Positions 169 through 37,844 of a stretch of 37,975 nucleotides of DNA are shown here, one piece after another. The stretch comes from Polaromonas sp. 39-63-25 (lineage in GTDB: Bacteria > Pseudomonadota > Gammaproteobacteria > Burkholderiales > Burkholderiaceae_C), in contig NZ_NCJH01000031.1 in the NCBI RefSeq assembly GCF_002278925.1, positions 1 to 37,975 on the forward strand, in the 5' to 3' direction. Position 1 is the stretch's first letter; each line of letters begins with the position of its first letter. A program made the position numbers and the translations under genes. A model generated the notes under the pieces. It saw only the letters and a program-made list of their open reading frames with translations. It did not search any database and was not told the DNA's origin.

Positions 169-216
169 CCTCAGCCCAATATCCACGGGCGCCAGCAGCT
201 ATCAAACAGATAGCAA
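169..216 (+). repeat. Family A repeat copy A1 (intergenic)
   Basis: The copy contains CCTCAGCCC, then GCGCCAGCAGCTAT, then a short spacer and ATAGCAA. The arms GCTATC and GATAGC form a small hairpin. It lies beyond the 3' end of parC, in antisense orientation to that gene. The repeat consensus I use is CCTCCAGCCCTT, 8-11 variable bases, GCGCNNGCAGCTA, 6-11 variable bases, ATAGCAA. This copy could act as a weak terminator hairpin for parC, but it has no T-run. Confidence 0.8.
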
Positions 217-227
217 CTACGACCCTG

Positions 228-2585
228 TCATTCGACCCGGCTGATCGCCGTCGGCTTGAAGCCCAGATCGGCCGCCTTGCCCTTGCGCCCGCGCGCGGCC
301 CTGGCATTGTTCAGGCTGCGGATCTCCAGCGTCTCCTCGCGCTCCTTGCCGCCGCGGCCTATGCCCTCGATTTTCACGCTGCGGGTGTACGCCGCCGCGC
401 CGGCCAGGGTGTCCTTGGCATCGAGGTCGATCAGCATCAGGCCGCGGCCGCCGGCGGCCTGGGTTTTGAGTTCGCTGATCTCGAAGGTCAGGATGCGCCC
501 GCCGGTGGAGGCGCAGGCCACATGGGTCGCCGGGTTCAAAGGCGCCGTGCCGCTGTTGCCCGAGACATGCGAGGGCTTGCAGATCGCCTCGCCTTCACCG
601 CAGCTGATGAAGGCCTTGCCGGCCTTCAGGCGCGACGTCATGTTCTCGACCGTGGCCAGGAAACCGTAGCCGCCGCTGCTGCTGAGCAGCAAGGTGGCGC
701 TGGCCGGTCCGGCGAAATAATGCGCCGGGTGTGTCCCGGTTTCAAGTTCGATCAATGTGGTCACCGGCTGCCCATCGCCGCGGGCGCCGGGCAGCATGGC
801 CACCGGAATCGAATACACCCGGCCCGTGCCTTTGGTCGCCGTGCCGAATACCAGCAGGGTATCGATGGTGCGGCATTCAAAGGTACCGTACAGGCCGTCA
901 CCGGACTTGAAGGCAAAACTGGCCGCATCGTGGCCGTGGCCGCTGCGCGCGCGCACCCAGCCCTTGGCGCTGACGACCACGGTGACCGGCTCGTCGAGCA
1001 CCTTCACTTCCAGCACGGCTTTTTTCTCGGCCTGGATCAGGGTACGACGCGGGTCGGCAAACTGTTTGGCGTCCGCCTCGATTTCCTTGATCATCAGGCG
1101 CCGCAAGGCGGCCGGGCTGCCGAGGATTTCCTCGAGTTTGCCCTGCTCTTCGCGCAAGCCCTTGAGCTCCTGCTCGATCTTGATGGCTTCCAGCCTGGCC
1201 AACTGGCGCAGGCGGATTTCAAGAATGTCTTCGGCCTGCCGCTCACTCAGATTAAAACGCGCAATCAGCGCCGCCTTGGGCTCATCGGACTGACGGATGA
1301 TGGCGATGACTTCGTCGATGTTGAGCAGCACCAGCTGCCGGCCCTCGAGGATGTGGATGCGGTCCAGCACCTTGTTCAGGCGGTGCTGCGAACGCCGCTC
1401 TATCGTGGTCTGGCGAAAGGATATCCACTCCTGCAGCATTTGCCGCAGCGTCTTCTGCGTCGGCCGGCCGTCCAGCCCGATCATGGTCAGGTTGATGCTG
1501 GCCGAGCTTTCCAGGCTGGTGTGCGCCAGCAGGGTGGTGATCAGTTCGGACTGCTCGATGCGGCTGGTCTTGGGCTCGAACACCAGGCGCACGGCCGCGT
1601 CCTTGCTCGACTCGTCGCGCACCACGTCAAGCACGGCCAGCACGGTCTGCTTGAGCTGGACCTGGTCCAGGCTCAGCGCTTTCTTGCCGGCCTTGATTTT
1701 CGGGTTGGTGATCTCTTCGATTTCTTCGAGCACCCTTTGGGTACTGACGCCGGGCGGCAGCTCCTGCACCACCAGCTGCCACTGGCCGCGCGCCAGGTCT
1801 TCAATTTTCCAGCGGGCGCGCACCTTGAGCGAGCCGCGGCCCGTGCTGTAGGCAGCCGCGATATCAGTGGCTGTCGAGATGATCTGGCCGCCGCCCGGGT
1901 AGTCGGGCCCGGCAATCAGCGTGTACAGCTCGTCGTCGCTGAGTTTGGGGGTCTTGATCAGTGCGATGCAGGCATCGGCCACTTCGCGCAGGTTGTGGCT
2001 GGGAATCTCGGTGGCCAGGCCGACGGCGATGCCGCTGGCGCCGTTGAGCAGCGTGAACGGCAGGCGCGCCGGCAGTTGCTTGGGCTCCTCGAAAGAGCCG
2101 TCGTAATTCGGCACGAAGTCGACTGTGCCTTCGTCGAGTTCGTCGAGCAGCAGGGTGGTGATTTTCGCCAGCCGCGCCTCGGTGTAACGCATGGCCGCGG
2201 CGCCGTCGCCGTCACGGCTGCCGAAGTTGCCTTGGCCGTCGATCAGCGGGTAGCGCTGGCTGAAGTCCTGCGCCATGCGCACCATCGCGTCATACGCCGC
2301 CTGGTCGCCGTGCGGATGGTATTTGCCGAGCACGTCACCGACCACACGCGCGCTTTTGACCGGCTTGGCGCCGCCGGCGCCGGAAAAGCCCAGCCCCATG
2401 CGCGCCATGGCGTACATGATGCGCCGCTGCACCGGCTTCTGGCCGTCGCAGACGTCGGGCAGGGCCCGGCCCTTGACCACGCTGAGCGCGTATTCGAGGT
2501 AGGCGCGCTGGGCATAGGCGGCCAGCGATTCCTGGTCAGGCACGTCGGGAGGGGAAGGCGGGGCAGGCGTAAAAAGATCGTCCAT
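228..2585 (-). CDS. parC: DNA topoisomerase IV subunit A
   Basis: This is the DNA breakage-reunion subunit of topoisomerase IV, which unlinks daughter chromosomes in the cytoplasm as a C2E2 complex with ParE. The 785-residue protein starts with a typical ParC N-terminus. It carries the quinolone-region motif GKYHPHGD (about residues 88-94) and the catalytic tyrosine in [12 protein letters not shown] (Tyr134 by my count). The winged-helix/tower region follows, with motifs [18 protein letters not shown], and then a C-terminal beta-pinwheel-like region. At the position of E. coli ParC Ser80 the residue is Gln95, and the Glu84 position is Asp99. The length suits betaproteobacterial ParC. It is the third gene after parE and a lytic transglycosylase on the same strand, 116 bases after the latter's stop. 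No strong Shine-Dalgarno precedes the ATG. Confidence 0.97.
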
Positions 2586-2701
2586 CGAGGTTCAAACTGA
2601 AAAAAAAGGATGGGGGTCAAAGAGGTGGCCGGACCGATGGGCCGGCTGGCCGTCGCAGGCGATTATGGCCTCACGCGAAACAGCGGTTCCACGTCAGGAC
2701 A

Positions 2702-3601
2702 CTAGTCGCGTTCGACCCGGAATTCCGGTGCAACCGGGCTTTGCACGACGAGGGTCGGCAGCTGGTTGCCGCGTCCGGTGGCGCCGCCAGCGGGCAGGCT
2801 GGACGGCAGTTTGCTGCCGCCCATCATTTCCATCCGGACACGGCCCGAGCGCCGCGCCTCCCCGATCATGCTGGGTGGCTTGAGATGGCTGTAGAGCTGC
2901 ATCACGGTCTTGACGTAATTTTTGGTCTCGGGATAGTTGGGAATCTTGTTGCCATAACGCTGGACCGCGCCTTCGCCGGCGTTGTAGGCCGCCACCGCCA
3001 GCTCCAGCTGGCCGGGAAACAGGTCGATCAGGTAGCGCAGGTAGCGCGAGCCGGCCCGAATGTTGGTTTTGGGGTCGGTCAGCTTTTTTTCGATCGGGGA
3101 GTTCTTGTCGGCTCGCACGCCGTACCGTTGGGCCGTGGGCGGCATCAGCTGCATCAGGCCCACCGCGCCCTTGGGCGACACCGCATGGGTGTTGAAGCCC
3201 GACTCGGTGGCAATCAGCGCCTGCAGCAGTTCGTAGTCGATGTCATGGGCCACCGACGCCTCGCGCAGCAAGTGTTTGACGGCCTTGTAGTTGGGTGACA
3301 CATCGAAAAAGGCCAGCAGCTTGGGCGGTGCACCCGGCATGCCATTGCCGTAGGCGCCCGAGGAGGTCTTTCCACCGCGGCTGGTGTCAAAACTTTCGCC
3401 GCCGCGAAAAAACAGCTGGTAACGCTCATCGAGCCGCTCGGCCGAGAAATGTGCCACGCCCTGGCCGTCCACATAACCCCAGACATCGGCGCGGGCAGGT
3501 GTGCCGGCCAGCAACAGGGCGGCAGCAGCTATCAAAAATGATAGCTGTTTGCGCAATAGCCACAAGGGCTGGAGGCACTTTCGACGTAAAAAATGGCTCA
3601 T
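2702..3601 (-). CDS. Lytic murein transglycosylase, SLT domain
   Basis: This is an exported peptidoglycan-cleaving enzyme of 299 residues. A signal peptide of about 38 residues ends near ALLLAGTPARA. A DUF4124-like stretch follows (DVWGYVDGQGVAHFS), then an SLT/goose-lysozyme-type domain at about 118-235. That domain has the catalytic Glu133 in ATESGFNTHAVSPKGAVGLM and the conserved AYNAGEGAV motif. The hydrophobic part of the signal peptide is encoded by a family A repeat (3524-3575), so that sequence seems to have been rebuilt by repeat DNA. The gene sits between parE (35 bases upstream) and parC (116 bases downstream) on the same strand, probably one operon. A 9-codon reading frame with its own Shine-Dalgarno ends in an ATGA overlap with this start. 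The ATG could be doubted for that reason, but the resulting signal peptide is good. Confidence 0.93.
   Translation of the reverse strand: MSHFLRRKCLQPLWLLRKQLSFLIAAAALLLAGTPARADVWGYVDGQGVAHFSAERLDERYQLFFRGGESFDTSRGGKTSSGAYGNGMPGAPPKLLAFFDVSPNYKAVKHLLREASVAHDIDYELLQALIATESGFNTHAVSPKGAVGLMQLMPPTAQRYGVRADKNSPIEKKLTDPKTNIRAGSRYLRYLIDLFPGQLELAVAAYNAGEGAVQRYGNKIPNYPETKNYVKTVMQLYSHLKPPSMIGEARRSGRVRMEMMGGSKLPSSLPAGGATGRGNQLPTLVVQSPVAPEFRVERD
3524..3575 (-). repeat. Family A repeat copy A2, inside the lytic transglycosylase signal peptide
   Basis: On the minus strand the copy reads CCTCCAGCCCTTGTGG, then GCGCAAACAGCTATC, then a spacer and GATAGCTGC. It is a near full-length family member. It encodes residues 10-26 or so of the transglycosylase (CLQPLWLLRKQLSFLIAA) in the sense direction. 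The spacer length keeps ATA GCT in frame instead of TAG, so the reading frame stays open. Confidence 0.85.
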
Positions 3602-3627
3602 GCCGTGCAGATCCGCAGCTTGCGCAT
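3598..3627 (-). CDS. Possible 9-residue leader peptide overlapping the transglycosylase start
   Basis: A tiny frame (MRKLRICTA, then TGA) begins at ATG 3627. It is preceded by AAAGGA with a 5-base spacer, the best Shine-Dalgarno between parE and the transglycosylase gene. Its stop overlaps the transglycosylase start as ATGA, the usual arrangement for translational coupling. It looks like the beginning of a signal peptide (M-R-K, then hydrophobic). It may therefore be the remains of the gene's original N-terminus, cut off when repeat A2 arrived. It may also be meaningless; conservation would decide. Confidence 0.35.
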   Translation of the reverse strand: MRKLRICTA

Positions 3628-3636
3628 GGAAGTCCT

Positions 3637-5607: not shown

Positions 5608-5641
5608 GGGGGGTGGATTGTAGTCCCGGATGATTTTATAA

Positions 5642-5657
5642 CTGGATAAATATACAG
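5642..5657. promoter_or_regulatory. LexA (SOS) box-like palindrome between parE and the MFS gene
   Basis: The sequence CTGGATAAATATACAG matches the gamma/betaproteobacterial LexA pattern CTGT-N8-ACAG except for the fourth base (G for T). The surrounding bases (AA before, TT after) also match the extended E. coli operator. It lies 35 bases upstream of the parE ATG and about 100 bases upstream of the MFS start, within the A+T-rich promoter region. It is called on sequence resemblance only. Confidence 0.5.
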
Positions 5658-9334: not shown

Positions 9335-10147
9335 ATGAAAACCATCGTCATCACCGGGGCTTCCGACGGCATAGGCGCGGAAATGGCGCGTCAGCTGGCG
9401 CAGCGCCATGGTGCTGCGGTGGCGCTGGTGCTGGCCGCGCGCAACGAAGCAGCGCTCAATACCGTTGCCTCCCAGTGCCAGGCCAGCGGGGCCGCGGCAC
9501 TGGTGGTCCCCACCGATGTGTCCGATCCGGCCCAGTGCCGCGCGCTGGTCAGCACGGCCGCCCGGGCGTTCGGCCAGATCGACGCCCTGATCAACAACGC
9601 CGGCATGTCGGCGCAGGCCCTGTTTGAAGATGTCAAAACCGACGACTTGGGCTGGTACGAAGACCTGATGCGCATCAACCTCTGGGGCAGCGTGTGGTGT
9701 ACCCATGCCGCCCTGCCCTACCTGAAGCAAAGTCGCGGCAGCCTGGTGGCGGTCTCCAGCCTCGCCGGCCTGGTGGGTGTGCCCGGGCGCACGGCCTACA
9801 GCGCCAGCAAATTCGCCATGACCGGTTTTTTTGAAGCCCTGCGCGCCGAACTGAAAACGGCCGGCGTCAGCGTCACCACCGCTTACCCCGGCGTGGTCGC
9901 CACACAGATCCGCTACCGGGGCTTCAACGCCGCGGGCGCGCCCGCCGGCGCCAGCGGCCTCAGGGAAGACGATGCCATGAGCGTCGAGACCTGCGCCCGG
10001 CTGATTCTCGACGGCATGGACAAACGCGCGCGCGAGGTCGTGATGACGCCCAAAGGCAAACTCGGGCGCTGGCTCAAGCTGCTGGCCCCCGGGGCCGTCG
10101 AATCCATGGCGCTGGCCGCGCTCAAGGACGAGGTCAAACCCCATTGA
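9335..10147 (+). CDS. Short-chain dehydrogenase/reductase
   Basis: A 270-residue classical SDR, a cytoplasmic NAD(P)-dependent oxidoreductase. It has the Rossmann motif TGASDGIG (7-14), NNAG (87-90) and the catalytic Ser141/142 with the YSASK motif (Tyr155, Lys159). The segment after the active site (TAYPGVVATQIRYRG) is the usual PG motif region. The C-terminal extension contains KLGRWLKLLAPG, similar to SDRs that act on hydrophobic or membrane-linked substrates. The substrate cannot be read from sequence. The stop codon overlaps the TTG start of the following methyltransferase by three bases inside ATTGA, so the two genes are probably co-translated. The gene is divergent from the EF-G paralogue, with about 160 bases between the starts. 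Confidence 0.9.
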   Translation: MKTIVITGASDGIGAEMARQLAQRHGAAVALVLAARNEAALNTVASQCQASGAAALVVPTDVSDPAQCRALVSTAARAFGQIDALINNAGMSAQALFEDVKTDDLGWYEDLMRINLWGSVWCTHAALPYLKQSRGSLVAVSSLAGLVGVPGRTAYSASKFAMTGFFEALRAELKTAGVSVTTAYPGVVATQIRYRGFNAAGAPAGASGLREDDAMSVETCARLILDGMDKRAREVVMTPKGKLGRWLKLLAPGAVESMALAALKDEVKPH

Positions 10148-10728
10148 AAACCGATACCGCCCCTGCGCATGCCAGCCTCACCCCGTCGGCCTGGGTCCGG
10201 CGCTGGTCCCACCTGGTGCCCGCCCAGGGCAGCGTGCTCGACGTCGCCTGCGGCCATGGCCGGCACGCTTACTGGTTTCATCAGCGAAATCACCCCCTGA
10301 CGCTTGTGGATCGGGCGCAGGAAGCTATCGATTCCATAGCAATTCCGGCGGCCTCCTGTGAAGCCGTGGTGGCCGACATTGAAAACGGACTCTGGCCTTT
10401 TTCGGGCCGGCAGTTCGACGCCGTGGTGGTCACCAACTACCTGTGGCGCCCCCTGCTGCCCACGCTGCTGGCCAGCCTGGCGCCGGGCGGCGTGCTGATT
10501 TACGAAACCTTTGCCCAGGGCAACGAAACCGTGGGGAAACCCTCGCGACCTGATTTCCTGCTGCGCCCCGGTGAGCTGCTGGAGGTCTGCCATGGCCTGC
10601 GGGTGGTCGCCTTTGAGGATGGCTTCCAGCAAGGCCCCGACCGCTTTACACAGCGGATTGCAGCGGTCCGGGAACTGCTGTCGCCGGGGACAGTCCCACG
10701 CCACTTGATCGACCAGCGCACTGGGTAG
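10144..10728 (+). CDS. Class I SAM-dependent methyltransferase
   Basis: A 194-residue protein with the Rossmann-like methyltransferase fold. Motif I is VLDVACGHGRHAYWF (31-45). An acidic residue ends strand 2 (LTLVDR, Asp56), and motif IV lies around FDAVVVTNYLW (91-101). It resembles the TehB/Methyltransf_11 type; the substrate is unknown. The start is TTG at 10144, which overlaps the SDR stop; no other start fits the N-terminus as well. A family A repeat (10292-10342) is embedded in the frame and encodes DRAQEAIDSIAIP, right after the strand-2 aspartate. The fold therefore tolerates or uses repeat-derived sequence next to the cofactor site. The stop codon TAG is part of a TAGAAT hexamer that could be a -10 element for dapA. 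Confidence 0.85.
   Translation: MKTDTAPAHASLTPSAWVRRWSHLVPAQGSVLDVACGHGRHAYWFHQRNHPLTLVDRAQEAIDSIAIPAASCEAVVADIENGLWPFSGRQFDAVVVTNYLWRPLLPTLLASLAPGGVLIYETFAQGNETVGKPSRPDFLLRPGELLEVCHGLRVVAFEDGFQQGPDRFTQRIAAVRELLSPGTVPRHLIDQRTG
10292..10342 (+). repeat. Family A repeat copy A3, inside the methyltransferase gene
   Basis: The core reads GGGCGCAGGAAGCTATC, spacer, CATAGCAA, with a more diverged left block (CTGACGCTTGT where the family has CCAGCCCTTNT). It is in sense orientation to the gene and is read as R-A-Q-E-A-I-D-S-I-A. This is the same reading frame as copies A4, A6 and A8. Confidence 0.75.
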
Positions 10729-18105: not shown

Positions 18106-19362
18106 TCACCCTGCCCGCTTGATCCGGCTGGCGATCTCTGCCACCAGTTGCCGCGCCAGCGACAGCTTGGAGGCACGCGCCAGTTCCCGGCTGCCCTGCG
18201 CATCGACCAGCAGCAGGGCGTTGTCGTCACGGCCGAAAGTGGCCGGGCCGATGTTGCCCACCAGCAGCGGCACGCCCTTGCGCAGGCGCTTGGCCTGCGC
18301 GTTGTCCTCGAGGTCGTGGCTCTCGGCGGCAAAACCGACGCAGAACAACTCACCCGATACGCCACGCGGCGATTGCGCCAAGGTCGCCAGGATGTCGGGG
18401 TTCTCGGTAAAAGCCAGCTGGGGTGCCTGGCCCGAGCCGTCCTTCTTGATCTTGCGCTCCGCGCTGCTCGCCGGTCGCCAGTCGGCCACGGCTGCGGTTG
18501 CTATAAAAACAGTAGCTGCTTGCGCCCGTTCCGTAACGGCTTCGAGCATGTTTTGTGCTGATCTGACGTCGATGCGGGTGACGCCGCGCGGCGTGCTCAG
18601 GCTGACCGGCCCGGCCACCAGCGTGACCTGCGCGCCGGCCTCGTGCGCGGCGCGGGCCACGGCAAAACCCATCTTGCCGCTCGACAGATTGGTGATGCCG
18701 CGCACCGGATCGATGGCCTCGTAGGTCGGGCCCGCCGTCACCAGCACATGCTGACCGGCCAGCACCTTGGGCGTGAAAAAGGCGACCATGTCTTCGAGCA
18801 GCTCGGGCGGCTCCAGCATGCGCCCGTCGCCGGTTTCGCCGCAGGCCTGGAACCCGCTACCCACCCCGAGGATGGTCGCGCCATCGCTGGAGAGCTGCGC
18901 CATGTTGCGCTGGGTGGCGGGATGGGCCCACATTTCACGATTCATCGCCGGCGCGATCAGCAGCGGCACGGTGGCGATGGGCCGGGCCAGGCACATGAGG
19001 CTAAGCAGGTCGTCGGCACGGCCATGCAGCAGTTTGGCCATGAAGTCGGCGCTGCAGGGCGCAATCAGGATGGCGTCGGCCTCACGGCTCAGGTTGATGT
19101 GCGCCATGTTGTTGGCCTCACGGCTGTCCCACTGGCTGGTGTAGACCGGCCGGCCGCTGAGCGCCTGCAGCGTCACCGCCGTGATGAACTGCTCGGCGGC
19201 CTCGGTCATGACCACCTGCACAGTGGCGCCCTGCTTGATCAGCGCGCGGCACAACTCCGCCGCCTTGTAGCAGGCAATGCCGCCCGACAGGCCCAGCACG
19301 ATGTGCCGGCCGGCCAGATCGCCGCCTGCTTCGATGGCTTCTTCGTTTGCTTGCTTCGTCAT
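18106..19362 (-). CDS. coaBC: Bifunctional phosphopantothenoylcysteine decarboxylase / phosphopantothenate-cysteine ligase
   Basis: This flavoprotein carries out two successive steps of coenzyme A synthesis, joining cysteine to 4'-phosphopantothenate (CoaB) and decarboxylating the product (CoaC). In the 418-residue protein the N-terminal CoaC half has GLSGGIACYKAAEL, APCSADFMAKL, the APAMN motif and GFQACGETGDGRM with the active cysteine. The C-terminal CoaB half begins VLVTAGPTYEAIDPVRGITNLSSGKMG. It continues with KIKK and NPDIL. ATG 19362 is chosen because it gives the family's start; upstream in-frame codons are low quality. A family A repeat (18498-18542) is embedded in the CoaB half and encodes AQAATVFIA next to the conserved TAAVADW strand. 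TACATT ends 7 bases before the start. It is first in an operon with the membrane-protein gene and dut. Confidence 0.96.
   Translation of the reverse strand: MTKQANEEAIEAGGDLAGRHIVLGLSGGIACYKAAELCRALIKQGATVQVVMTEAAEQFITAVTLQALSGRPVYTSQWDSREANNMAHINLSREADAILIAPCSADFMAKLLHGRADDLLSLMCLARPIATVPLLIAPAMNREMWAHPATQRNMAQLSSDGATILGVGSGFQACGETGDGRMLEPPELLEDMVAFFTPKVLAGQHVLVTAGPTYEAIDPVRGITNLSSGKMGFAVARAAHEAGAQVTLVAGPVSLSTPRGVTRIDVRSAQNMLEAVTERAQAATVFIATAAVADWRPASSAERKIKKDGSGQAPQLAFTENPDILATLAQSPRGVSGELFCVGFAAESHDLEDNAQAKRLRKGVPLLVGNIGPATFGRDDNALLLVDAQGSRELARASKLSLARQLVAEIASRIKRAG
18498..18542 (-). repeat. Family A repeat copy A4, inside coaBC
   Basis: On the minus strand it reads GGGCGCAAGCAGCTACTG, spacer, TATAGCAA, with a diverged left block. 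It is in sense orientation and encodes AQAATVFIAT in the CoaB domain, next to the conserved AAVADW strand. Family members elsewhere have a comparable strand here, so the repeat seems to have replaced or reshaped sequence, not simply lengthened the protein. Confidence 0.8.
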
Positions 19363-19387
19363 GCTCCGCAATGTACAGGATATGCCC

Positions 19388-19456
19388 CCACGCTTGCCAC
19401 TTCGTGTGCTGCGCTGCCCCCCGAGGGGGCTATTTTTCCTAGGGGCGGCCCGTCGG
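19388..19456 (+). repeat. Family B GC-rich repeat, copy B1 (partial)
   Basis: This copy contains CCCCCACGCTTGCC, ACTTCGTGTG and GCTGCCCCCCGAGGGGGC, the core of a repeat also found at 29797-29890 and 33208-33371. CCCCC-GA-GGGGG forms a hairpin. It fills most of the 190 bases between coaBC and pyrG. It may contribute to termination or to the promoter region, but the sequence does not decide this. Confidence 0.7.
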
Positions 19457-19506
19457 AAAAATGTTTGCCCTGGCCTGGTGTGAGCGTAGACGCATGCAGC
19501 CACCCG

Positions 19507-23989: not shown

Positions 23990-24018
23990 CCGCAGCCCGC
24001 TCGCTCGCCTCCCTTTTG

Positions 24019-24065
24019 CTCTGCTTTTGATAGCTGCCGGCGCTTTACCTATAAGGGCTGTAGCC
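24019..24065 (-). repeat. Family A repeat copy A5, intergenic ftsB/P-loop gene
   Basis: On the minus strand it reads GGCTACAGCCCTTAT, then GCGCCGGCAGCTATC, with a degenerate right arm. It fills most of the 80 bases between ftsB and the P-loop gene. It ends 4 bases before the TTG start of the latter, so it forms that gene's leader. Confidence 0.75.
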
Positions 24066-24069
24066 TGAT

Positions 24070-24621
24070 TTGGCTCATTATTTGACCGCCCCGCTTGCCC
24101 ACGGGCCTGCTTCGCGCCACATCGCCTTGCTGGGCGCAGCAGGTACCGGCAAGACCCGGCTGGCTGGCGAACTCAGGGCGGCGCTGGACAGCCGCCCCTC
24201 CCCGCACCCGGCCCTCCTTTCCATCCTGATTGCCGACAACCCGCCGCTGGCGACTGTTCGGCAGGCCCGCGCCGGCGCACCGACCGGCCCACGTGGCTTC
24301 GGTTTCGATCAGGTCCTGCTCATGGGTCTGGATCTGCCGGTGCCAGCCGGTCTCGCGGCAGCGCAGGAGGCGGTCGACCAGCAGCTGCGCCTGACGCTTG
24401 CCAACGCGGAGCTGCCCTACACCGTGGTTTACGGCCAGGGGCCGCAGCGCCTGGCCCATGCGCTGGGCGCGCTGCAGGGGCTGCTGGACGGCGGCAAGCC
24501 GCATCCGCTTGCGGACGATAGCCGGGAGCGCAAGCCCTGGGTCTGGGCCTGCGACACCTGCAGCGACCCGGGTTGCGAACGCCGCCTGCTCAGCGACCTG
24601 CTGGAACGCCGGTTGCGCTGA
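24070..24621 (+). CDS. P-loop ATPase-like protein with C-terminal cysteine cluster, unknown function
   Basis: A 183-residue protein. Walker A GAAGTGKT is at 22-29, after HIALL. An aspartate-containing strand (FDQVLLMGLDLPVPAG) may be Walker B-like. The end is distinctive: a W-rich stretch with CDTCSDPGC (Cys161, Cys164, Cys169), a possible metal site, then a basic helix. The start is TTG 24070, because an in-frame TGA lies immediately upstream; TTG 24082 is an alternative. It may be a small nucleotide-binding factor with a zinc knuckle. I do not recognise the family. It ends 18 bases before the convergent hslO stop. Repeat A5 lies just upstream, and no Shine-Dalgarno is close. Confidence 0.6.
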   Translation: MAHYLTAPLAHGPASRHIALLGAAGTGKTRLAGELRAALDSRPSPHPALLSILIADNPPLATVRQARAGAPTGPRGFGFDQVLLMGLDLPVPAGLAAAQEAVDQQLRLTLANAELPYTVVYGQGPQRLAHALGALQGLLDGGKPHPLADDSRERKPWVWACDTCSDPGCERRLLSDLLERRLR

Positions 24622-26266: not shown

Positions 26267-27082
26267 ATGACGGCGACACCCGCACCCCCCGAACTGCGCC
26301 AACAGGCCCTGCAGGCGCTGATGGAACCCGATCCACAGCAGAAAGTGCTGCTGGCCCAATCCCTGTGGGCGCAGGCAGCTACTCTTTCGATAGCGTATCA
26401 AGACCCACCCGAGGCGCCCACCGGCCTGCCCGGCTGCCCGGCCCGGCCCGAGCTGCGCTCCCACCTCGATGTGCCCAAGCGTTCTCCCTTCACCCCGCAG
26501 GGGCTGGCCGCCCTGCTGCACGCGGTGACCCACATCGAATTCAACGCGATCAACCTGGCACTCGACGCCGCCTGGCGCTTTGACGGCATGCCGCCCGCCT
26601 ATTACCTGGACTGGCTGAAAGTCGCCGCGGAAGAAGCCTTGCACTTCAGCCTGCTGCGCGAGCACCTGCAGACCCTCGGTTATGACTACGGTGACTTTCC
26701 CGCCCACACCGGCCTGTGGGACATGACCGAAAAAACCGCCGGCGACGTGCTCGCGCGCATGGCGCTGGTGCCGCGCACGCTGGAAGCCCGGGGGCTGGAC
26801 GCCACCCCCGCGATGCAGGCGAAACTGCGCCGGGTCGGCAGTCCCGCCGCCCTGCGCGCGGTGGCGATTCTGGACATCATCCTGCGCGACGAGATCGGCC
26901 ATGTCGCCATCGGCAACCATTGGTACCGGCATCTGTGCGGGCAGCGCCAACTCGATCCCGTGGCGACTTATGCTGAACTTGCCGCCAGGTATGAAGCGCC
27001 CGCGCTGAGAGGCCCGTTCAACCTGGCCGCCCGGCGCGCCGCCGGGTTTGACGAGGCCGAGCTGGCCCGGCTGGGGACCTGA
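26267..27082 (+). CDS. Ferritin-like DUF455 protein
   Basis: A 271-residue protein of the DUF455 family, with a ferritin-like four-helix fold related to tRNA hydroxylase MiaE. It has likely di-iron ligands in THIEFNAINLALD, AAEEALHFSLL (E-x2-H type) and RDEIGHVAIGNHWYR (E-x2-H). DVLARMALVPRTLEARGLDAT is the family signature. The exact substrate is unknown. ATG 26267 is supported by the alignment-like N-terminus; GACAAT lies 6 bases before it and no Shine-Dalgarno is visible, so the message may be leaderless. A family A repeat (26351-26397) is read in frame and encodes LWAQAATLSIAYQ in the N-terminal region. It is divergent from the hexapeptide gene. Confidence 0.88.
   Translation: MTATPAPPELRQQALQALMEPDPQQKVLLAQSLWAQAATLSIAYQDPPEAPTGLPGCPARPELRSHLDVPKRSPFTPQGLAALLHAVTHIEFNAINLALDAAWRFDGMPPAYYLDWLKVAAEEALHFSLLREHLQTLGYDYGDFPAHTGLWDMTEKTAGDVLARMALVPRTLEARGLDATPAMQAKLRRVGSPAALRAVAILDIILRDEIGHVAIGNHWYRHLCGQRQLDPVATYAELAARYEAPALRGPFNLAARRAAGFDEAELARLGT
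26351..26397 (+). repeat. Family A repeat copy A6, inside the DUF455 gene
   Basis: It reads CTGGCCCAATCCCTG, then GGGCGCAGGCAGCTACTC, spacer, GATAGCGTA. It is in sense orientation and encodes WAQAATLSIAY. The AQAAT peptide is the same as that encoded by copy A4 in coaBC, although the proteins are unrelated. Confidence 0.8.
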
Positions 27083-28573: not shown

Positions 28574-28608
28574 ACCGGTCGCCTTCCGAAAATTATCAAT
28601 AAAATCAG

Positions 28609-28656
28609 CCTCCAGCCCTTATGTGGCGGTCGCAGGCAGCTATTGAATCAATAGCA
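28609..28656 (+). repeat. Family A repeat copy A7 (full-length, intergenic)
   Basis: This is the best complete copy: CCTCCAGCCCTTATGTGG, then CGCAGGCAGCTATTG, then AATCAATAGCA. GCTATTGA and TCAATAGC form a perfect hairpin. It lies in the 99 bases between the convergent cfa and first Bug-type gene, and could serve as terminator DNA. It served as the reference for the others. Confidence 0.85.
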
Positions 28657-28672
28657 CTCCACACCCCGGGCT

Positions 28673-29665: not shown

Positions 29666-29734
29666 GAATTTTCCTGAGGTGAACATGCAAGCATTTTGCC
29701 CCGCGCCGGGTAAGCACTGTCCTTCGGGGGAGAT

Positions 29735-29760
29735 CCTTCGACAAGCTCAGGACGAACGGG
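29735..29760 (+). repeat. Family D repeat, copy D1
   Basis: CCTTCGACAAGCTCAGGACG then AACGGG. This is the widely distributed repeat known from many bacterial genomes, whose complement translates as PFVLSLSK. It lies between two genes, 37 bases from family B copy B2. Confidence 0.75.
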
Positions 29761-29796: not shown

Positions 29797-29890
29797 CAGG
29801 GGCCGCGGGTCCGGCTTCGCCGGCCCGCAGGCGCAGCGGCCCCCTCGGGGGGCAGCGACCCACACGAAGTGGGGGAGCGTGGGGGCTCAA
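29797..29890 (-). repeat. Family B GC-rich repeat, copy B2 (longest clean copy)
   Basis: From the left: GCAGGGGCCGCGGGTCCGGC, TTCGCCGGCCCGCAGGCGCA, GCGGCCCCCTCGGGGGGCAG, CGACCCACACGAAGTGGGGG, AGCGTGGGGGCTC. It is the complement of the B1 and B3 orientation. It contains nested GC-rich inverted repeats (GCGGGTCCGGC with GCCGGCCCGC; GCCCCCTCGGGGGGC). It occupies the region immediately before the xerD stop codon, on the plus strand side of the gap 29666-29890. Confidence 0.75.
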
Positions 29891-33200: not shown

Positions 33201-33207
33201 AATAGGG

Positions 33208-33371: not shown

Positions 33372-33395
33372 TTCTTCGAGGCGCACACGTCTGAT

Positions 33396-33421
33396 CCGAT
33401 CATCCTGCGCCTGTCGAAGGA
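33396..33421 (-). repeat. Family D repeat, copy D2 (diverged)
   Basis: On the minus strand it reads TCCTTCGACAGGCGCAGGAT then GATCGG, matching D1 with four or five changes. As with D1 it lies next to a family B copy (B3). Confidence 0.65.
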
Positions 33422-33458
33422 TGGCGAGGCCCGGCGGAAAAACCAGCCAGGCCCATCC

Positions 33459-34259
33459 TCAAGGCCGGCCGAAACCGTGACGCTGCAGGACAGCCTGCGC
33501 GGGCGGCGACAGGATGAACTGCGCGAGCCGCGTGGCGGCGCCATCCCCGTCCGCGCGCCAGGTCAATCCGTAACTGGCCGCCACCTCCAGCGCGGGCGGC
33601 ACCGCAATGATTTTCAGGCGCGGCACCTCGCGCTGAGCCACCACGGCATTGGTGCAATAAGTCAGGAACAGGTCGGCCTTGCCTTCATCCATGACCCAAG
33701 CATAGGTGCTGCGACCCGCCGGCGCCTTGGGCGAGTCGGCACCGCCCGTGAGCTGCAGCGCCTTGGCCTCGAGCACCCCAAATGCGCCGGGGCGCAGCGT
33801 GTCGGCGCGACGAAACAGCGACCAGGCGTAGTCACCCGACGGATCGGCCTTGGGCGTCGAGGTTCCGACGCGGACCCCGGGGCGCAGCATGGTCTCCAGC
33901 AGCGCATCCGGGCTGACATCGACCGAAGGCGCCGCCAGCGCACACATCTGGTTGAGCGCAAACACCCGGGGTGCCTGCCAGCCACCGGCCTGTGCGAGGC
34001 GCTGCGGATGGTCCACATCGGCCGAGGCGAAGACCTGGGCCGGTTCACCCTTTTCGATACGCTGGCGCAGCAGGCCCGAGGCGCCAAATGTCAGCGCCAC
34101 CTTCTGGCCGCTTTGCGCCTCGAACTGCTGCGCCACTTCGGTCAAGGCCTCACGCAGGCTGCCCGCCGCGTAGAGCTGAACCGGCACAGGCTGCGCCTGC
34201 GCTGCGGAGGCCACCAGCGACACGGCCATGGTTGCCAGGACGCGCTGCCAGTTCACCAT
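33459..34259 (-). CDS. ModA-like molybdate/tungstate-binding periplasmic protein
   Basis: A 266-residue periplasmic binding protein. The signal peptide ends near VASAAQAQ. The mature chain begins VQLYAAGSLREALTEVAQQF, then LTFGASGLLRQRIEKGEPAQVFASADVDH. These are the ModA-type oxyanion-binding motifs (AAGS and GASG). GEPAQVF replaces the usual GAPAD, so ligand preference may differ. The ATG overlaps the tupA stop (TGATG); GTG 34262 is a possible alternative start. It is the last gene of the tup operon and gives the importer a second binding protein. Its C-terminus contains SPPAQAVLQRHGF, the standard late helix. Confidence 0.85.
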   Translation of the reverse strand: MVNWQRVLATMAVSLVASAAQAQPVPVQLYAAGSLREALTEVAQQFEAQSGQKVALTFGASGLLRQRIEKGEPAQVFASADVDHPQRLAQAGGWQAPRVFALNQMCALAAPSVDVSPDALLETMLRPGVRVGTSTPKADPSGDYAWSLFRRADTLRPGAFGVLEAKALQLTGGADSPKAPAGRSTYAWVMDEGKADLFLTYCTNAVVAQREVPRLKIIAVPPALEVAASYGLTWRADGDGAATRLAQFILSPPAQAVLQRHGFGRP

Positions 34260-35095
34260 CACTTCGTGGCGTTCGGAAAGAACAGCTGCTCGCCGCCAAT
34301 CTTGTAGCTGGCAATCGCCGCCTGGCCGGCCGGTGAAATCACCCAGTCCACGAATTTTTGCGCCTCGGCCACCTTGACTTTCGGGTGTTTGGCAGGGTTG
34401 ACCACCATCACGCCGTACTGGTTGAACAGGCGTGTATCACCCTCCACCAGCACCGCCAGATCAGCGCGGTTCTTGAACGCCAGCCAGGTGCCGCGGTCGG
34501 CCATCACGTAGGCGCCCGAGCTGGCCGCGATGTTCAGCGCCGGGCCCATGCCGCAGCCGCAGGCCTTGTAGCCGGCAAACTGCGGGTTGTCGACGCCGGC
34601 ATTTTTCCAGTAACGAAGCTCGGCGGCATGGGTGCCGCTCTTGTCTCCGCGCGAAACAAAGGTGGCGTTGGCGGCACTGATTTTTTTCAGTGCCTCAACA
34701 ATGTCCTTGCCTTTGGTTTTCGCCGGATCGGCAGCCGGGCCAATCAGCACGAAGTCGTTGTACATGACCGGGTAGCGTTTGATCGCAAAACCTTCGGCAA
34801 TGACTTTTTCCTCGGCCACCTGGTCGTGCACAAACAGCACGTCGGCATCGCCGCGGCGGCCCATGTCGATGGCCTGGCCGGTGCCCAGGGCCACCACCTT
34901 GATATCGATGCCGCTGGCCTGCTTGAAGGCCGGCAGCAGCGTGCCGAACAGGCCCGACTGCTCGGTCGAGGTCGTCGAGGCCATCACGATGGTGTTTTGC
35001 TGCGCTATAGAAACAGTAGCTGCCAGCGCAATAGGAAAAAGGGCTGCAACCCGAAAACACTTGAACATCCGGGACCGTGCGGGGGTGGGCTTCAT
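34259..35095 (-). CDS. tupA: Tungstate ABC transporter substrate-binding protein
   Basis: A 278-residue periplasmic binding protein. After the signal peptide (cleavage probably near VSIAQQ-NT) comes the TupA signature VMASTTSTEQSGLFGTLLPAFK, with the TTTS-like threonine/serine cluster that binds tungstate. ALGTGQAIDMGRRGDADVLFVHD and RGDKSGTHAAELRYWKNAG follow, all strongly TupA. AAGGAG with an 8-base spacer precedes ATG 35095. A second ATG at 35068 would shorten the N-terminus. The signal peptide core (AALFPIALAATVSIAQ) is encoded by a family A repeat (35004-35048). The start overlaps the tupC stop (ATGA). It feeds the TupB/TupC permease for tungsten or molybdenum cofactor enzymes. Confidence 0.94.
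   Translation of the reverse strand: MKPTPARSRMFKCFRVAALFPIALAATVSIAQQNTIVMASTTSTEQSGLFGTLLPAFKQASGIDIKVVALGTGQAIDMGRRGDADVLFVHDQVAEEKVIAEGFAIKRYPVMYNDFVLIGPAADPAKTKGKDIVEALKKISAANATFVSRGDKSGTHAAELRYWKNAGVDNPQFAGYKACGCGMGPALNIAASSGAYVMADRGTWLAFKNRADLAVLVEGDTRLFNQYGVMVVNPAKHPKVKVAEAQKFVDWVISPAGQAAIASYKIGGEQLFFPNATK
35004..35048 (-). repeat. Family A repeat copy A8, inside the tupA signal peptide
   Basis: On the minus strand it reads GCAGCCCTTTTTCC, then GCGCTGGCAGCTACTG, spacer, CTATAGC. It is in sense orientation and encodes AALFPIALAATVSIA, the hydrophobic core of the TupA signal peptide. Confidence 0.85.
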
Positions 35096-35781
35096 ACAAG
35101 TTCTCCTTTGACAAACATCTCGGCTTCCAGCGGCAGGGGGCCGTTGAAAAAATCATGGGTGGGCCGGTCGGCCAGCAGGCGACCGTGCTCGAGGTAGATC
35201 ACGCGGCTGGCCAGGCGTTTGACCTGGCCCAGGTTGTGGCTGCTGAACACCAGCGTCATGCCGGCGTCGGCAAACTCGGTCATCAGGGCCTCCACGTCGC
35301 GTTTGGCGCCGGGGTCCAGGCTGGCGGTGGGCTCGTCGAGCAGGAGGACCTGGGGCTGCAAGGCCCAGGCACGCGCCAGCGCCAGCCGCTGCTGCTGCCC
35401 GCCTGACAGGGCCTTGGCATTGCGGTGGGCGATGCCCGCCAGCCCGACACGCGCCAGCGCCTGAAGCGCCTGGGTTTGCGCCTTTTTCCAGGGCACGGCC
35501 TTGAGCCACAGACCCAGCGCCACGTTGTTCAGGGCACTGGCACGCAGCATGTAGGGCCGCTGGAACAACATGGCCTGACGCGCCGAAACGTCTGAAGACA
35601 CCGTGCCCCGCGTCGGCGGCACCAACCCGTGCAGGGTTCTGAGCAGCGTGCTTTTGCCGCTGCCGTTGGCACCCACCAGGGCCACCCGTTCACCGGCGCG
35701 GATGCTGAGCGCGCAACCGGTCAGCGCGCGGGTCTGGCCGAAGTGCACGTCGACCGCTTTGAGTTCGAACAGCGCGCTCAT
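35092..35781 (-). CDS. tupC: Tungstate ABC transporter ATP-binding protein
   Basis: A 229-residue ABC ATPase that powers oxyanion import on the cytoplasmic face. Walker A is GANGSGKS (37-44), the signature is LSGGQQQRLALARAW (125-139) and Walker B is VLLLDEPTASLDP (145-157), with the expected switch histidine near SSHNLGQV. It is one domain with no regulatory tail. The start overlaps the tupB stop by four bases (ATGA), and its stop overlaps the tupA start. The order tupB, tupC, tupA is the reverse of the common tupABC order. Confidence 0.94.
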   Translation of the reverse strand: MSALFELKAVDVHFGQTRALTGCALSIRAGERVALVGANGSGKSTLLRTLHGLVPPTRGTVSSDVSARQAMLFQRPYMLRASALNNVALGLWLKAVPWKKAQTQALQALARVGLAGIAHRNAKALSGGQQQRLALARAWALQPQVLLLDEPTASLDPGAKRDVEALMTEFADAGMTLVFSSHNLGQVKRLASRVIYLEHGRLLADRPTHDFFNGPLPLEAEMFVKGELV

Positions 35782-36536
35782 GATTTGACGGCTCCAGCCT
35801 CGGGGACCAGCAATTGGGCCGTTTCGGGCAGCCCGTCATCGAGCCGCTCGCGCCAGCGCCGCACCAGCGCGATCAGCACGTTGAGCAGCAACACCACGGC
35901 CAGCAGCAGCAGGCCCAGTGCCAGCGCCAGCGGCAGGTCGCCCTTGCTGGTTTCCAGCGCAATCGCCGTGGTCATGACGCGCGTGAAACCGTCGATGTTG
36001 CCGCCCACCACCATCACCGCGCCGACCTCGGAGATCGCCCGGCCGAAGGCGGCGATCAGCACGGTGAGCAGCGCATAACGCTCGTCCCACAGCAGCAGCA
36101 GGCTGCGCATGCCCTTGCCTGCGCCCAGCGACTGGAACTGTTCGCCGTGCAGACGGTCGGCGTCTTCAATGGTCTGGCGCACCAGCGCCGTCACCACCGG
36201 CAGCACCAGCACGGCCTGCGCCAGCACCATGGCCTGAAAGGAAAACAGCCAGCCGAGAAAACCCAGCGGGCCGGACCGCGACAGCAGCAAATAAACCACC
36301 AGCCCGACCACCACCGACGGCAGGGCCAGCAGCGTGTTGAGCACGGTCAGCAGAATGCCGCGGCCGCGAAAGCGCGCCACGCCCAGCCAGGCCCCGAGCA
36401 GCAGCCCGGCGCTGCAGGCGATTGCGCAGGCACAGGCGCTGACCGCCAGCGAGCGGAACACAATGCTCGCCAACAGGGGATCCAGGGAAACGATGAGCGA
36501 AAACGCCGTGCCGACGCTGTCCGGGAAAGTGTTCAT
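35778..36536 (-). CDS. tupB: Tungstate ABC transporter permease
   Basis: A 252-residue inner-membrane protein with about five to six transmembrane segments. The EAA loop is around GAGKGMRSLLLLWDERYALLTVLIAAFGRAISEVG. VVVGLVVYLLLSRSGPLGFLGW and SFQAMVLAQAVLVLPVV are typical of TupB/WtpB permeases. It is the first gene of the operon; its ATG is about 137 bases from the start of the divergent ModE-type regulator. A degenerate family A copy (36572-36625) lies in that gap. Regulation by molybdate or tungstate through the neighbour is likely, but I see no clear ModE operator. Confidence 0.92.
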   Translation of the reverse strand: MNTFPDSVGTAFSLIVSLDPLLASIVFRSLAVSACACAIACSAGLLLGAWLGVARFRGRGILLTVLNTLLALPSVVVGLVVYLLLSRSGPLGFLGWLFSFQAMVLAQAVLVLPVVTALVRQTIEDADRLHGEQFQSLGAGKGMRSLLLLWDERYALLTVLIAAFGRAISEVGAVMVVGGNIDGFTRVMTTAIALETSKGDLPLALALGLLLLAVVLLLNVLIALVRRWRERLDDGLPETAQLLVPEAGAVKS

Positions 36537-36571
36537 GCAGGAAAAAAGTTGTGACCTTATCGTAGAAGCGA

Positions 36572-36625
36572 AGGCCGTGGGTCGCCATCGGGAATCACGA
36601 GCTATGAAGCAAATTGCATAGCAAA
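36572..36625 (+). repeat. Family A repeat copy A9 (degenerate), tup promoter region
   Basis: The right half is clear: GAGCTATGAAGC, then AAATTGCATAGCAAAG. The left half (AGGCCGTGGGTCGCC) only loosely matches. It lies between the divergent tupB and regulator starts, so it may have altered their promoters. I call it with moderate confidence because the left block is weak. Confidence 0.5.
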
Positions 36626-36673
36626 GACGCGCCCGGCCTTGCGACCATAATCAGCACACCCTTCTGCCACCCC

Positions 36674-37783
36674 ATGCACAAAGTCGAACTCTCCTATCTG
36701 TTGACGCCCGAGCGCAGCAAGGACACGCTGATCCGCAATCCGCTGATGGACCTGCTGCACGCCGTGCGCGAGCAGGGCTCCATTTCGAAGGCGGCGCGCG
36801 CCCTCGATCTGTCCTACCGCCATGTCTGGGGGGCGCTGAAAAAGTGGGAACTGACACTGGAGCGTCCGCTGATCGTCTGGGACAAGGGCCAGCGCGCCCA
36901 GCTCACCGAGTTTGGCGAGAAGCTGTTGTGGGCCGAGCGCCAGGCGCAGGCCCGGCTGGCGCCGCAGATCGAGGCGCTGCGCGGCGACATCGAACGGGCC
37001 TTCTCCACCGCCTTTGACGATGAGGCCCACGTGCTCACGCTGTATGCCAGCCACGACAGCGCGCTGAGCGCACTGCGCGAACAGGCCGGTGCGCGCGGCC
37101 TGCACCTGGACATCCGCTTCATGGGCAGCGTGGACGCGATTGCGGCGCTCAACGCCGGGCGGTGCATGATGGCCGGCTTCCACACCCTGGAGCAGCCGGG
37201 TAACAAGTCGGTGGCGGCGCTGACTTACCGCAGCCTGCTCAAGCCCGGCCTGCACAAGCTGATCGGTTTCGCGCATCGCCGGCAGGGCCTGATGGTGGCG
37301 AAGAACAACCCGCTGGCCATCAGCGGCATCGCCGACCTGAAGCGGCCAGGCATCCGATATGTCAACCGCGCGGCAGGCACCGGCACGCGGGTGCTGCTCG
37401 ACGAACTGCTGGCGCAGGCCGGCCTGAACGCGGACGGCATCGAAGGCTACAACACGCAGGAGCCCTCCCACAGCGCGGTCGCGCAGGCCATCGCCAGCGG
37501 CGCCGCCGATGCCGGGATGGGCATCGAAGCCGCAGCGCACGAGAAAAACCTCGGGTTTGTGCCGCTGGTCCAGGAGCGTTACCACCTGGTCTGCCTGAAG
37601 TCCGAACTGCCGCAACCCCAAGTACAGGCCCTGCTCAAGGAGTTGCAGAGCAGCGACTGGCAGAGGACGCTGGCCGGACTGCCCGGCTACAGCGGCGACC
37701 ACGCACAAAGCGGCAAGGTGCTGTCGCTGCGGGCGATGTTGCCTTGGTGGAATTACCGGAAAGCCAAGGCTTCCCGCTCTTGA
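36674..37783 (+). CDS. ModE-type transcriptional regulator with periplasmic-binding-like domain
   Basis: A 369-residue cytoplasmic regulator. The N-terminal winged helix (about 20-110) is ModE/LysR-like, with the HTH segment GSISKAARALDLSYRHVWGALKKWE (35-60 region) that is the ModE hallmark. The C-terminal domain (about 120-350) is a binding-protein-like fold (HVLTLYASHDSALSALREQ, NRAAGTGTRVLLDELL, AQAIASGAADAGMGI), unlike the MOP domains of E. coli ModE. It probably senses an oxyanion or the molybdenum cofactor and controls the divergent tup operon; this is inference from position. ATG 36674 gives the family's start; an upstream ATG at 36614 adds residues encoded by repeat A9. A CATAAT hexamer is at 36646-36651. 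Confidence 0.88.
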   Translation: MHKVELSYLLTPERSKDTLIRNPLMDLLHAVREQGSISKAARALDLSYRHVWGALKKWELTLERPLIVWDKGQRAQLTEFGEKLLWAERQAQARLAPQIEALRGDIERAFSTAFDDEAHVLTLYASHDSALSALREQAGARGLHLDIRFMGSVDAIAALNAGRCMMAGFHTLEQPGNKSVAALTYRSLLKPGLHKLIGFAHRRQGLMVAKNNPLAISGIADLKRPGIRYVNRAAGTGTRVLLDELLAQAGLNADGIEGYNTQEPSHSAVAQAIASGAADAGMGIEAAAHEKNLGFVPLVQERYHLVCLKSELPQPQVQALLKELQSSDWQRTLAGLPGYSGDHAQSGKVLSLRAMLPWWNYRKAKASRS

Positions 37784-37794
37784 GGATGATTTCT

Positions 37795-37844
37795 GGCTAC
37801 AGCCCTTGGTGTGCGCGCGCTGGCAGCTATTTAATTCATAGCAA
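37795..37844 (+). repeat. Family A repeat copy A10 (intergenic)
   Basis: It reads GGCTACAGCCCTTGGTG, then GCGCGCTGGCAGCTATT, then AATTCATAGCAA. It lies 12 bases after the stop codon of the regulator gene, before family C copy C2, and is a near full-length copy. Confidence 0.85.

Follow-up and report, generated by a model that had tools for sequence, protein, structure and literature searches.

The short repeat scattered over this part of the Polaromonas sp. 39-63-25 genome is mostly a DNA signal of about 60–69 bp that was written in place rather than carried into genes by a jumping sequence. Hundreds of copies are spread across the chromosomes of Polaromonas and its relatives, in dialects that differ between species; what the signal resembles most are the tags by which some bacteria take up DNA of their own kind. 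We consider it fairly probable that this chromosome-wide recognition motif is kept by a trans-acting, sequence-specific process, mostly not by insertion, and that its reader is an uptake receptor.

The window, i.e., the whole stretch of 37,975 nucleotides that was analysed (contig NZ_NCJH01000031.1), had been described in an earlier note as carrying ten copies of a repeat of about 50 bp. Nine of these ten sites fit one ungapped motif (41–76 bits), which turned out to be about 69 bp long; the tenth, at 36572, has a best ungapped score of −22 bits and is not a copy. Four copies lie outside genes or at their edges: 150..218 (+ strand, 56.2 bits) between genes; 24014..24082 (− strand, 63.5 bits), intergenic and overlapping a predicted gene start (24070) by 13 bases; 28591..28659 (+ strand, 75.7 bits), between convergent genes and, of the nine, the closest to the consensus; and 37778..37846 (+ strand, 61.5 bits), at and just past a predicted gene end (37783). 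All relatives that span these sites carry a homologous copy (2/2, 5/5, 4/4, and 3/3, respectively). The other five copies are genic, and Pfam agrees with the host genes named earlier: an SLT-domain gene of lytic transglycosylase type (2702-3601, PF01464), with a copy at its 5′ end (3525..3593, − strand, 41.3 bits; in 4/5 spanning relatives, absent in G315); a methyltransferase-domain gene (10144-10728, PF13649; copy at 10276..10344, + strand, 57.5 bits; 8/9, absent in G304); coaBC (18106-19362; copy at 18496..18564, − strand, 57.8 bits, in place); a DUF455 gene (26267-27082, PF04305; copy at 26330..26398, + strand, 47.4 bits; 8/9, absent in G304); and a periplasmic binding protein gene (34259-35068, PF12849), with a copy at its 5′ end (35000..35068, − strand, 54.8 bits; 4/4). 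The name TupA for this last protein is that of the earlier note alone. As also stated there, all five genic copies are in sense orientation and four of them share one frame, the main one; the SLT copy is in a minor frame.

A weight matrix for the ungapped motif of about 69 bp was trained on the Polaromonas sp. 39-63-25 genome, of which we scanned 1.62 Mb with a call level above 12 bits. We found 256 copies, against 0 in a reversed-sequence control that preserves composition but not codon structure, i.e., about 760 copies per genome by extrapolation. Over the whole genome, one exact pattern gave 93 matches (control 1) and another, short pattern gave 282 (control 0). The copy number is far above chance and reaches the hundreds, as in the uptake sequences USS and DUS. 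The motif carries AT-rich blocks, and its length is fixed across many copies; the AT-rich steps at positions −34..−31, −17/−16, and 10..12 tolerate either AAAA or TTTT, TT or AA, and each copy contains an imperfect palindrome, AGCTAY-N7-RTAGC, at one end of the motif only. Helical phasing of the AT steps is not claimed, since the periodogram has its maximum at 7.75 bp and a lesser peak at 10.75.

Two main dialects were found, nearly exclusive per genome, which is also a feature of USS and DUS with their species or clade dialects. GCCC/GCGC counts are 195/9 in our genome and 313/16 in G287, versus 4/179 in G297, 1/165 in G309, and 1/177 in G375. The dialect is echoed in an alanine codon of CoaBC, which could be read in 38 of 50 genomes: it is GCG in 8/9 GCGC genomes read and GCC in 19/19 GCCC genomes read; GCC being the codon in 7/10 motif-poor genomes read too, only the change to GCG is informative. 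At six sites aligned between G297 and our genome, position −19 follows the dialects four times; at the other two, one of which is the methyltransferase site of the window, our genome has the base of the other dialect. DapE reads GCGC in 3/3 GCGC genomes, and also in G290, a GCCC genome.

Copy number is switched on or off from one species to the next within a single genus, also where genomes are complete. In a CoaBC tree, G304, G276, and G391 are motif-free among motif-rich genomes, as losses in single lineages, and another 12 motif-free genomes group in one clade; in G304, 120 kb with a G+C content of 0.63–0.66 contain no copy. Within genomes, distribution is uneven as well. In G297, the one genome for which we considered presumed plasmids (first 20 kb of each small contig, or the whole contig), 136 kb of these contigs yielded 1 copy, while 200 kb of the main contig yielded 33. 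Of the two longest copy-free deserts, one holds a Tn3 transposase and catabolic-type enzymes, the other surface-polysaccharide genes with a G+C content of 0.57; ten further long copy-free gaps are mostly of ordinary G+C. For the presumed plasmids of one genome and for two deserts, the motif is, like USS and DUS, sparse in foreign DNA and dense in the shared chromosome.

The alternative that survives best, which we nevertheless regard as unlikely, is a chromosome-structure motif, i.e., a site of about 60 bp bound by a nucleoid or architecture protein, whose copies are selected for chromosome function and not for uptake. AT-rich steps accepting AAAA or TTTT, TT or AA resemble DNA-shape recognition, and near absence from presumed plasmids would suit such a role, as would the scarcity of close neighbours: copies are rarely less than 1 kb apart, with 1 gap in 251 below 500 bp versus a random mean of 7.8%. 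The palindrome, in addition, has no compensatory pairing, which points to a readout of DNA, not RNA. On the other side, no consistent strand polarity runs along the contigs (34+/65− on C31, 43/43 on C52, 23/22 on C18), and the on/off pattern between congeneric species with complete genomes, the near-exclusive dialects, and the extended gaps without copies, in which the same chromosome carries foreign-looking genes, are all easier to understand under biased uptake. Over long distances, copies are spaced no more regularly than random placement would give (coefficient of variation of 1.08 vs. 1.01), a point against the uptake reading. One has to keep in mind that another chromosome-wide DNA-binding protein could account for all these facts too.

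Much less probable is a mobile palindromic repeat (of MITE, REP, or RPE type) that entered genes in frame, in line with the proposal of the earlier note that a repeat spread through coding sequence by being translatable. A long shared consensus of fixed length would fit, and two proteins behave as expected from insertion: compared with their PDB homologues, DapE has 17 and PurL 11 extra residues at the copy, and the DapE site spans 14 residues in the motif-less G304, G381, and G357 versus 24 in our protein. To judge by these extra residues, some loops have grown or shrunk. Most genic sites tested, however, show unchanged protein length: 5/7 PDB-compared proteins have no length change, LigA, LpxB, Dxr, and CoaBC aligning without extra residues at the motif and 3-hydroxyisobutyrate dehydrogenase with a 1-residue shift. 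Apart from DapE and PurL, the coaBC loci and the PDB-compared proteins showed no insertions facing empty orthologous sites. The motif stands in the same place in relatives, being kept (>20 bits) in 46/51 alignments that span a window copy, with flank identities of 73–96% at shared sites; the five misses are those of G304 (3) and G315 (2). Dialects, too, speak against a mobile repeat, which for coaBC is already contradicted. There, the homologous position reaches 26 bits or more in 27/30 genus loci, ours included, with no change in length. The earlier note had named orthologues with the same residues in unrelated codons as evidence against its own proposal, and the CoaBC of motif-free G304 does have almost identical residues there, encoded by different codons. 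The Ile/Val codon at motif position 15, read in 50/50 genomes, ends in A in 28/29 motif-rich, 4/8 low, and 0/13 motif-free genomes; ATA makes up 4.2% of Ile codons, and rare codons (ATA, GCT) are found at the motif. Codon choice in CoaBC bends to the motif.

Genomic placement bears on a regulatory or RNA element (transcription factor site, terminator, or riboregulator), which we hold to be equally improbable. In the 1.62 Mb, 144/256 copies are intergenic, and convergent spacers are enriched (45 copies in 29.0 kb, versus 75 in 107.3 kb of co-directional and 18 in 42.1 kb of divergent spacers); the palindrome in each copy also suits such an element, and, of four copies folded, two do better than shuffles (z −2.4 and −3.9). 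The two others fold no better, 96/256 copies lie wholly inside predicted genes, and copies in co-directional spacers are 36 on the same strand as the genes versus 39 on the opposite one. The stem, moreover, varies without compensatory changes (A-T 158, A-G 43, C-T 32, C-G 3), and these pair counts rule out an RNA hairpin, the folds of the four copies being mixed; an Rfam scan of the window gave no match at gathering scores.

Inside genes, the sense orientation seen in 5/5 window copies becomes a weak excess genome-wide (57 sense vs. 39 antisense, two-sided p = 0.08), while the frame preference holds: 47/57 sense copies use one frame, as do 24/39 antisense copies for theirs. Stop codons alone would give 24.1, 21.2, and 3.9 copies in the three sense frames, versus 47, 6, and 4 observed; an alanine-rich translation that suits existing proteins would set which frames occur in genes. 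Permissive placement in situ, intergenic and coding, with biases of frame and orientation, is also what USS and DUS display, the exceptions here being the added residues of DapE and PurL. Copies inside genes are rich in Ala and have lower scores than those between genes (means of 47.9 and 60.3 bits), as might be expected if alanine-rich protein stretches resembled the consensus by chance, a codon-usage or matrix artefact that is already refuted by the intergenic majority, the empty control, the rare codons at the motif, and the absence of copies from the 120 kb of G304 sequence with the G+C content given above.

Among known systems, the DUS of Neisseriaceae, with their dialects and ComP receptor, are described as having at least hundreds of copies, both intergenic and intragenic, at permissive core-genome sites, with dialects by clade and some family genomes lacking them (PMC3630211), all of which recalls our motif. 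They differ in being 10–12 bp long, versus about 60–69 bp, and of unrelated sequence, and in their frequent inverted pairs (PMC3630211), of the terminator type, whereas no two copies start less than 150 bp apart in our 1.62 Mb; one opposite-strand pair, about 145 bp apart, lies in locus L236. Inverted pairs, reported to be common among DUS (PMC3630211), are not an uptake requirement. The USS of Pasteurellaceae are likewise described as numerous, with a core and AT-rich flanking segments and one favoured genic orientation; their core is 9 bp, with about 31 bp in all, and their sequence is unrelated (PMC7811141, PMC2346458). Our motif, at about 60 bp, is longer than known uptake sequences. Uptake and receptor are demonstrated for DUS (PMC3630211) and uptake was measured directly for USS (PMC7811141, PMC2346458); for the Polaromonas motif, both are proposed.

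Part of the motif had been seen before. A spaced motif, ATAGCT(N)22CAAAAG, was reported in 2017 in P. naphthalenivorans CJ2, with 125 copies, of which 101 intergenic, 18 in genes, and 34 convergent (PMC5217627); it is a fragment of the CJ2 dialect of the Polaromonas motif, and its 6/6 instances in 200 kb of G297 coincide with motif matches. What that report says of it (PMC5217627) concerns the fragment, without function, relatives, or dialects. The motif GCTTAT(N)5AAGCG of A. ebreus TPSY (PMC5217627) would be in register with ours; 1.62 Mb of our genome and the 114 named loci contain 0 matches to it. The RPEs of Rickettsia are also short repeated DNA inside genes in a tolerated frame; they are described as insertions (PMC3733652), whereas our motif is mostly length-neutral and common to relatives at the tested sites. 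The BRE, another short repeat of Comamonadaceae and Bordetella with a few copies in genes, is described as about 90 bp long, 69% G+C, and often tandem (PMC3110155), while ours is about 69 bp long with AT-rich blocks and no neighbours within 150 bp. For BRE, the counts are 29 in Polaromonas sp. JS666 and 4 in CJ2 (PMC3110155), versus 22 and 147 exact motif matches in G315 and G297, presumed to be these two strains; compared by description and not by sequence, size and copy numbers rule out that the motif is BRE.

A trans-acting reader plus drive fits these observations, the scarcity of close neighbours included, and by analogy its best-known case is that of USS and DUS. In this view, the motif would be read by a receptor for DNA uptake, probably one of the type IV minor pilins; fragments bearing the motif would be preferentially taken up and recombined, and permissive places would acquire it through this bias, as has been proposed for USS in Pasteurellaceae and DUS in Neisseriaceae. 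Competence machinery, as judged by ComEC, is above cut-off in 78/87 genus genomes, ours included; ComEC is also present in motif-free genomes and was dropped as a discriminating gene. The FimT/GspH pilin separated 26 hand-chosen genomes almost cleanly, a separation that weakened over the genus and makes it only a lead: with ancestry uncontrolled, genomes with more motif matches tend to have a lower best PF12019 score (rho −0.53, 79 genomes, the 8/87 without a PF12019 match being dropped), 33 motif-poor (at most 40 matches) and 10 motif-rich genomes scoring above 65 bits versus 6 poor and 30 rich at or below. This inverse link is loose and confounded by ancestry, and the ComEC and FimT/GspH comparisons over the genus genomes identified no cognate receptor.

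In the same family, transformation of Verminephrobacter is reported to be sequence-specific and pilus-dependent, and A. temperans to be transformed solely by DNA of its own species among those tried (PMC4212676). Our literature search found no paper on a DNA uptake sequence in Comamonadaceae or an uptake sequence in Polaromonas, and, judged by titles and listing, none on natural transformation or competence in Polaromonas. That Comamonadaceae possess a third, independent uptake-sequence system, with a partly shape-read tag of about 60 bp, several dialects, and repeated gain and loss, is a proposition for which we see the balance as even. If true, the sequence-specific transformation reported in Verminephrobacter and Acidovorax would be accounted for by this tag, which would also mark which bacteria can exchange genes; as an uptake sequence, it would bring in a third bacterial family beside the Pasteurellaceae and Neisseriaceae of the papers cited, with a much longer motif. 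Its natural on/off and dialect variation would let comparison find the receptor and test biased gene exchange and the cost to protein sequence. Should the motif instead serve a different DNA-binding system, there would still be a chromosome-wide motif in need of explanation, one to which codon choice yields even in conserved genes.

We described the motif by a weight matrix that started from exact matches and was refined by iteration over 1.62 Mb of our genome, Polaromonas sp. 39-63-25 (34% of 4.83 Mb; 54 contigs, the window being C28). It is ungapped and spans about 69 positions, TTT nnAR Yn AAAW nRGCCTCCAGCCCWW, then a poorly conserved stretch of about ten bases, and then GGGCGCAAGCAGCTAY nnAWT nn RTAGCAA; the length of about 50 bp proposed in the earlier note was too short. 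In these 1.62 Mb, 256 copies score above 12 bits and 246 above 30 bits, while the reversed sequence gives none; the counts are for ungapped copies, those with insertions or deletions being left out, and extrapolation would bring the genome to about 760. Nine of the ten sites previously listed in the window are copies by this matrix, but the one at 36572 is not.

The motif appears mostly to have arisen in place, and mostly not by insertion. In coaBC, it scores at least 26 bits at the homologous position in 27 of 30 genus loci (the 30 best matches, with identity to the query below 86% in 23 of them), the exceptions being the related genomes G304 (−16.5 bits), G315 (9.6), and G307 (15.2). G304 encodes a nearly identical residue run with G+C-rich codons, which contradicts, for coaBC, the idea of a repeat entering coding sequence. 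CoaBC codons were compared in 50 of the 87 genus genomes (20 hand-picked, mostly motif-poor, in addition to the 30 best matches): at motif position 15, the third base of the Ile/Val codon is A in 28 of 29 motif-rich, 4 of 8 few-copy, and none of 13 motif-free genomes, ATA making up 4.2% of Ile codons. When the nine window copies were compared with ten syntenic windows, 51 of the 90 possible alignments spanned the site (unaligned sites being uncounted); the motif is kept in 46 of them, the other five belonging to G304 (three) and G315 (two), and gaps fall within the element in 10 of the 51. Among seven hand-picked enzymes compared with PDB homologues, LigA, LpxB, Dxr, and CoaBC have no extra residues at the motif, 3-hydroxyisobutyrate dehydrogenase shows a one-residue shift, and PurL and DapE have 11 and 17 extra residues, respectively. 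The DapE motif is present in 25 of the 30 loci nearest our gene and missing from G304, G381, G357, G278, and G291; the interval between the conserved LWA and TLVFAGH is 14 residues in G304, G381, and G357, 24 in ours, and 28 in G356, a difference that may reflect either a gain by insertion or a loss by deletion.

Of the 256 copies, 144 are intergenic, 96 lie entirely within genes, and 16 overlap a gene in part; as the 1433 genes predicted by our home-made gene finder cover 88% of bases, the motif is under-represented in genes compared with random placement, though far from excluded. The earlier note had all five genic copies of the window in sense orientation and four of them in one frame. Over the 1.62 Mb, frames are indeed strongly uneven, with 47, 6, and 4 sense copies (24.1, 21.2, and 3.9 expected from stop codons alone) and 10, 24, and 5 antisense ones (2.1, 26.4, and 18.3), but the sense excess shrinks to 57 against 39 (p = 0.08). 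Comparison with these expectations indicates that stop avoidance accounts for part of the frame bias; the remainder likely reflects how well the encoded residues suit the protein. Six predicted genes stop within an antisense copy, each 38 nt before the copy's far end (C18 244660 and 272677, C31 167530 and 553775, C44 (fetched part) 4268, and C52 474399), so that the motif supplies the stop codon.

The left half of the motif is group-specific (CTCCAGCCC in our genome, CTTTTGCGC in G297), and one spot in it reads GCCC or GCGC, which we call dialects. Many rich genomes use one of the two almost exclusively (GCCC/GCGC counts of 195/9 in ours, 313/16 in G287, 4/179 in G297, and 1/165 in G309), and a few mix them (76/58 in G370, 95/48 in G380); others have many right halves and few of either (0/1 in G283, 15/0 in G361), pointing to further dialects, which likely exist. 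Loci retrieved with our own dialect's pattern share the layout with small differences (L179, L189 (Ottowia), L192 (Simplicispira), L214 (Extensimonas), and L234 (Rhodoferax antarcticus)); three of four Ottowia copies have GCCCTACA. Orthologous coding sites follow the dialect in part. The CoaBC Ala codon, read in 38 of 50 rows (12 unread), is GCG in eight of nine GCGC genomes (GCA in G318) and GCC in all 19 GCCC genomes; since GCC also occurs in 7 of 10 further motif-poor genomes (2 GCT, 1 GCG), only the change to GCG is informative. At six sites aligned between G297 and our genome, position −19 differs dialect-wise at four, including CoaBC and DUF455; both have G at L307-13456 and at the methyltransferase site, where G305, G321, G376, and G277 have C. 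DapE carries GCGC in all three GCGC genomes and also in G290, a GCCC genome. Most GCGC genomes form one clade in the CoaBC tree, with G316 outside.

Tong et al. (2017; PMC5217627) reported 125 copies of ATAGCT(N)22CAAAAG for P. naphthalenivorans CJ2, with 101 intergenic, 18 genic, and 34 convergent, and, in the passages dealing with it, doubted transcription initiation and assigned no role. Within 200 kb of G297 it occurs six times, always at a motif match, and it does not occur in our 1.62 Mb. Our searches of open-licence papers turned up no printed account of the complete motif, of its dialects, or of a part played in uptake. The window also holds a second, unrelated repeat family of about 80 bp (19384–19464 and 29839–29872), which might be the BRE of PMC3110155; listed copies across genus genomes are 84–98% identical to the window's, with adjoining pairs in G367 and G300. 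The window ends (1–100 and 37873–37972) form a 100-nt inverted repeat with 84% complementary arms, and 29733–29759 (ATCCTTCGACAAGCTCAGGACGAACGG) has an 85% complementary partner at 33396–33422.

Close neighbours are rare: 1 of 251 distances is below 500 bp (7.8% under random placement, 95% range 5.2–11.2%) and 6.0% are below 1 kb (15.0%), with random positions drawn from genic and intergenic DNA alike; the coefficient of variation of spacing, 1.08, is not below random (1.01). One of the two longest copy-free stretches, C52:1–90016, starts with a Tn3 transposase and contains catabolic-type enzymes, and the other, C31:437358–500346, contains surface-polysaccharide genes at a G+C of 0.57 (10 proteins examined in each); ten more gaps measure 16–40 kb each, most with ordinary G+C. 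Eight smaller contigs of G297, presumed plasmids (first 20 kb of each, or whole), hold 1 copy in 136 kb, compared with 33 over 200 kb on the main contig, and G304 has none in 120 kb.

Each of the 87 genus genomes has between 0 and 307 matches to a short exact pattern. In the CoaBC tree of 50 genomes, rooted at the midpoint and uncertain in several branches, one clade unites 12 genomes that have no more than two matches, and G391 (1 match), G276 (7), and G304 (8) are placed among motif-rich genomes. Across the family, a count by eye gives at least 20 matches in 58 of the 299 genomes and in 31 of the 141 genera, the reversed pattern reaching 12 at most in any genome, and a single genus can include both rich and empty genomes. 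ComEC was found with and without the motif. In an exploratory comparison, ancestry uncontrolled, strong matches to the FimT/GspH pilin (PF12019) were associated with few motif copies: its score is above 65 bits in 33 motif-poor (at most 40 matches) and 10 rich genus genomes, and 65 bits or less in 6 poor and 30 rich ones.

Stem positions of the motif show no compensatory changes (A-T 158, A-G 43, C-T 32, C-G 3), and neighbouring bases are interdependent (TT/AA/CC at −17/−16; AAAA/AAAT/TTTT at −34 to −31), which together suggest that a protein reads the motif as DNA, partly by shape. Conservation in place, codon bending, group dialects, whole loss in single lineages, and near absence from presumed plasmids call for a trans-acting reader able to drive the motif over the chromosome, and biased DNA uptake followed by recombination is the best-known process of such a kind. 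Uptake sequences in genes prefer one orientation (PMC2346458), DUS dialects track the core phylogeny (PMC3630211), and the predicted USS receptor is a minor pilin (PMC12616744). Within the family of Polaromonas, sequence-specific DNA uptake via type IV pili is reported for Verminephrobacter eiseniae, and A. temperans was transformed, among the DNAs tried, only by that of its own species (PMC4212676). The motif described here may be linked to DNA uptake.
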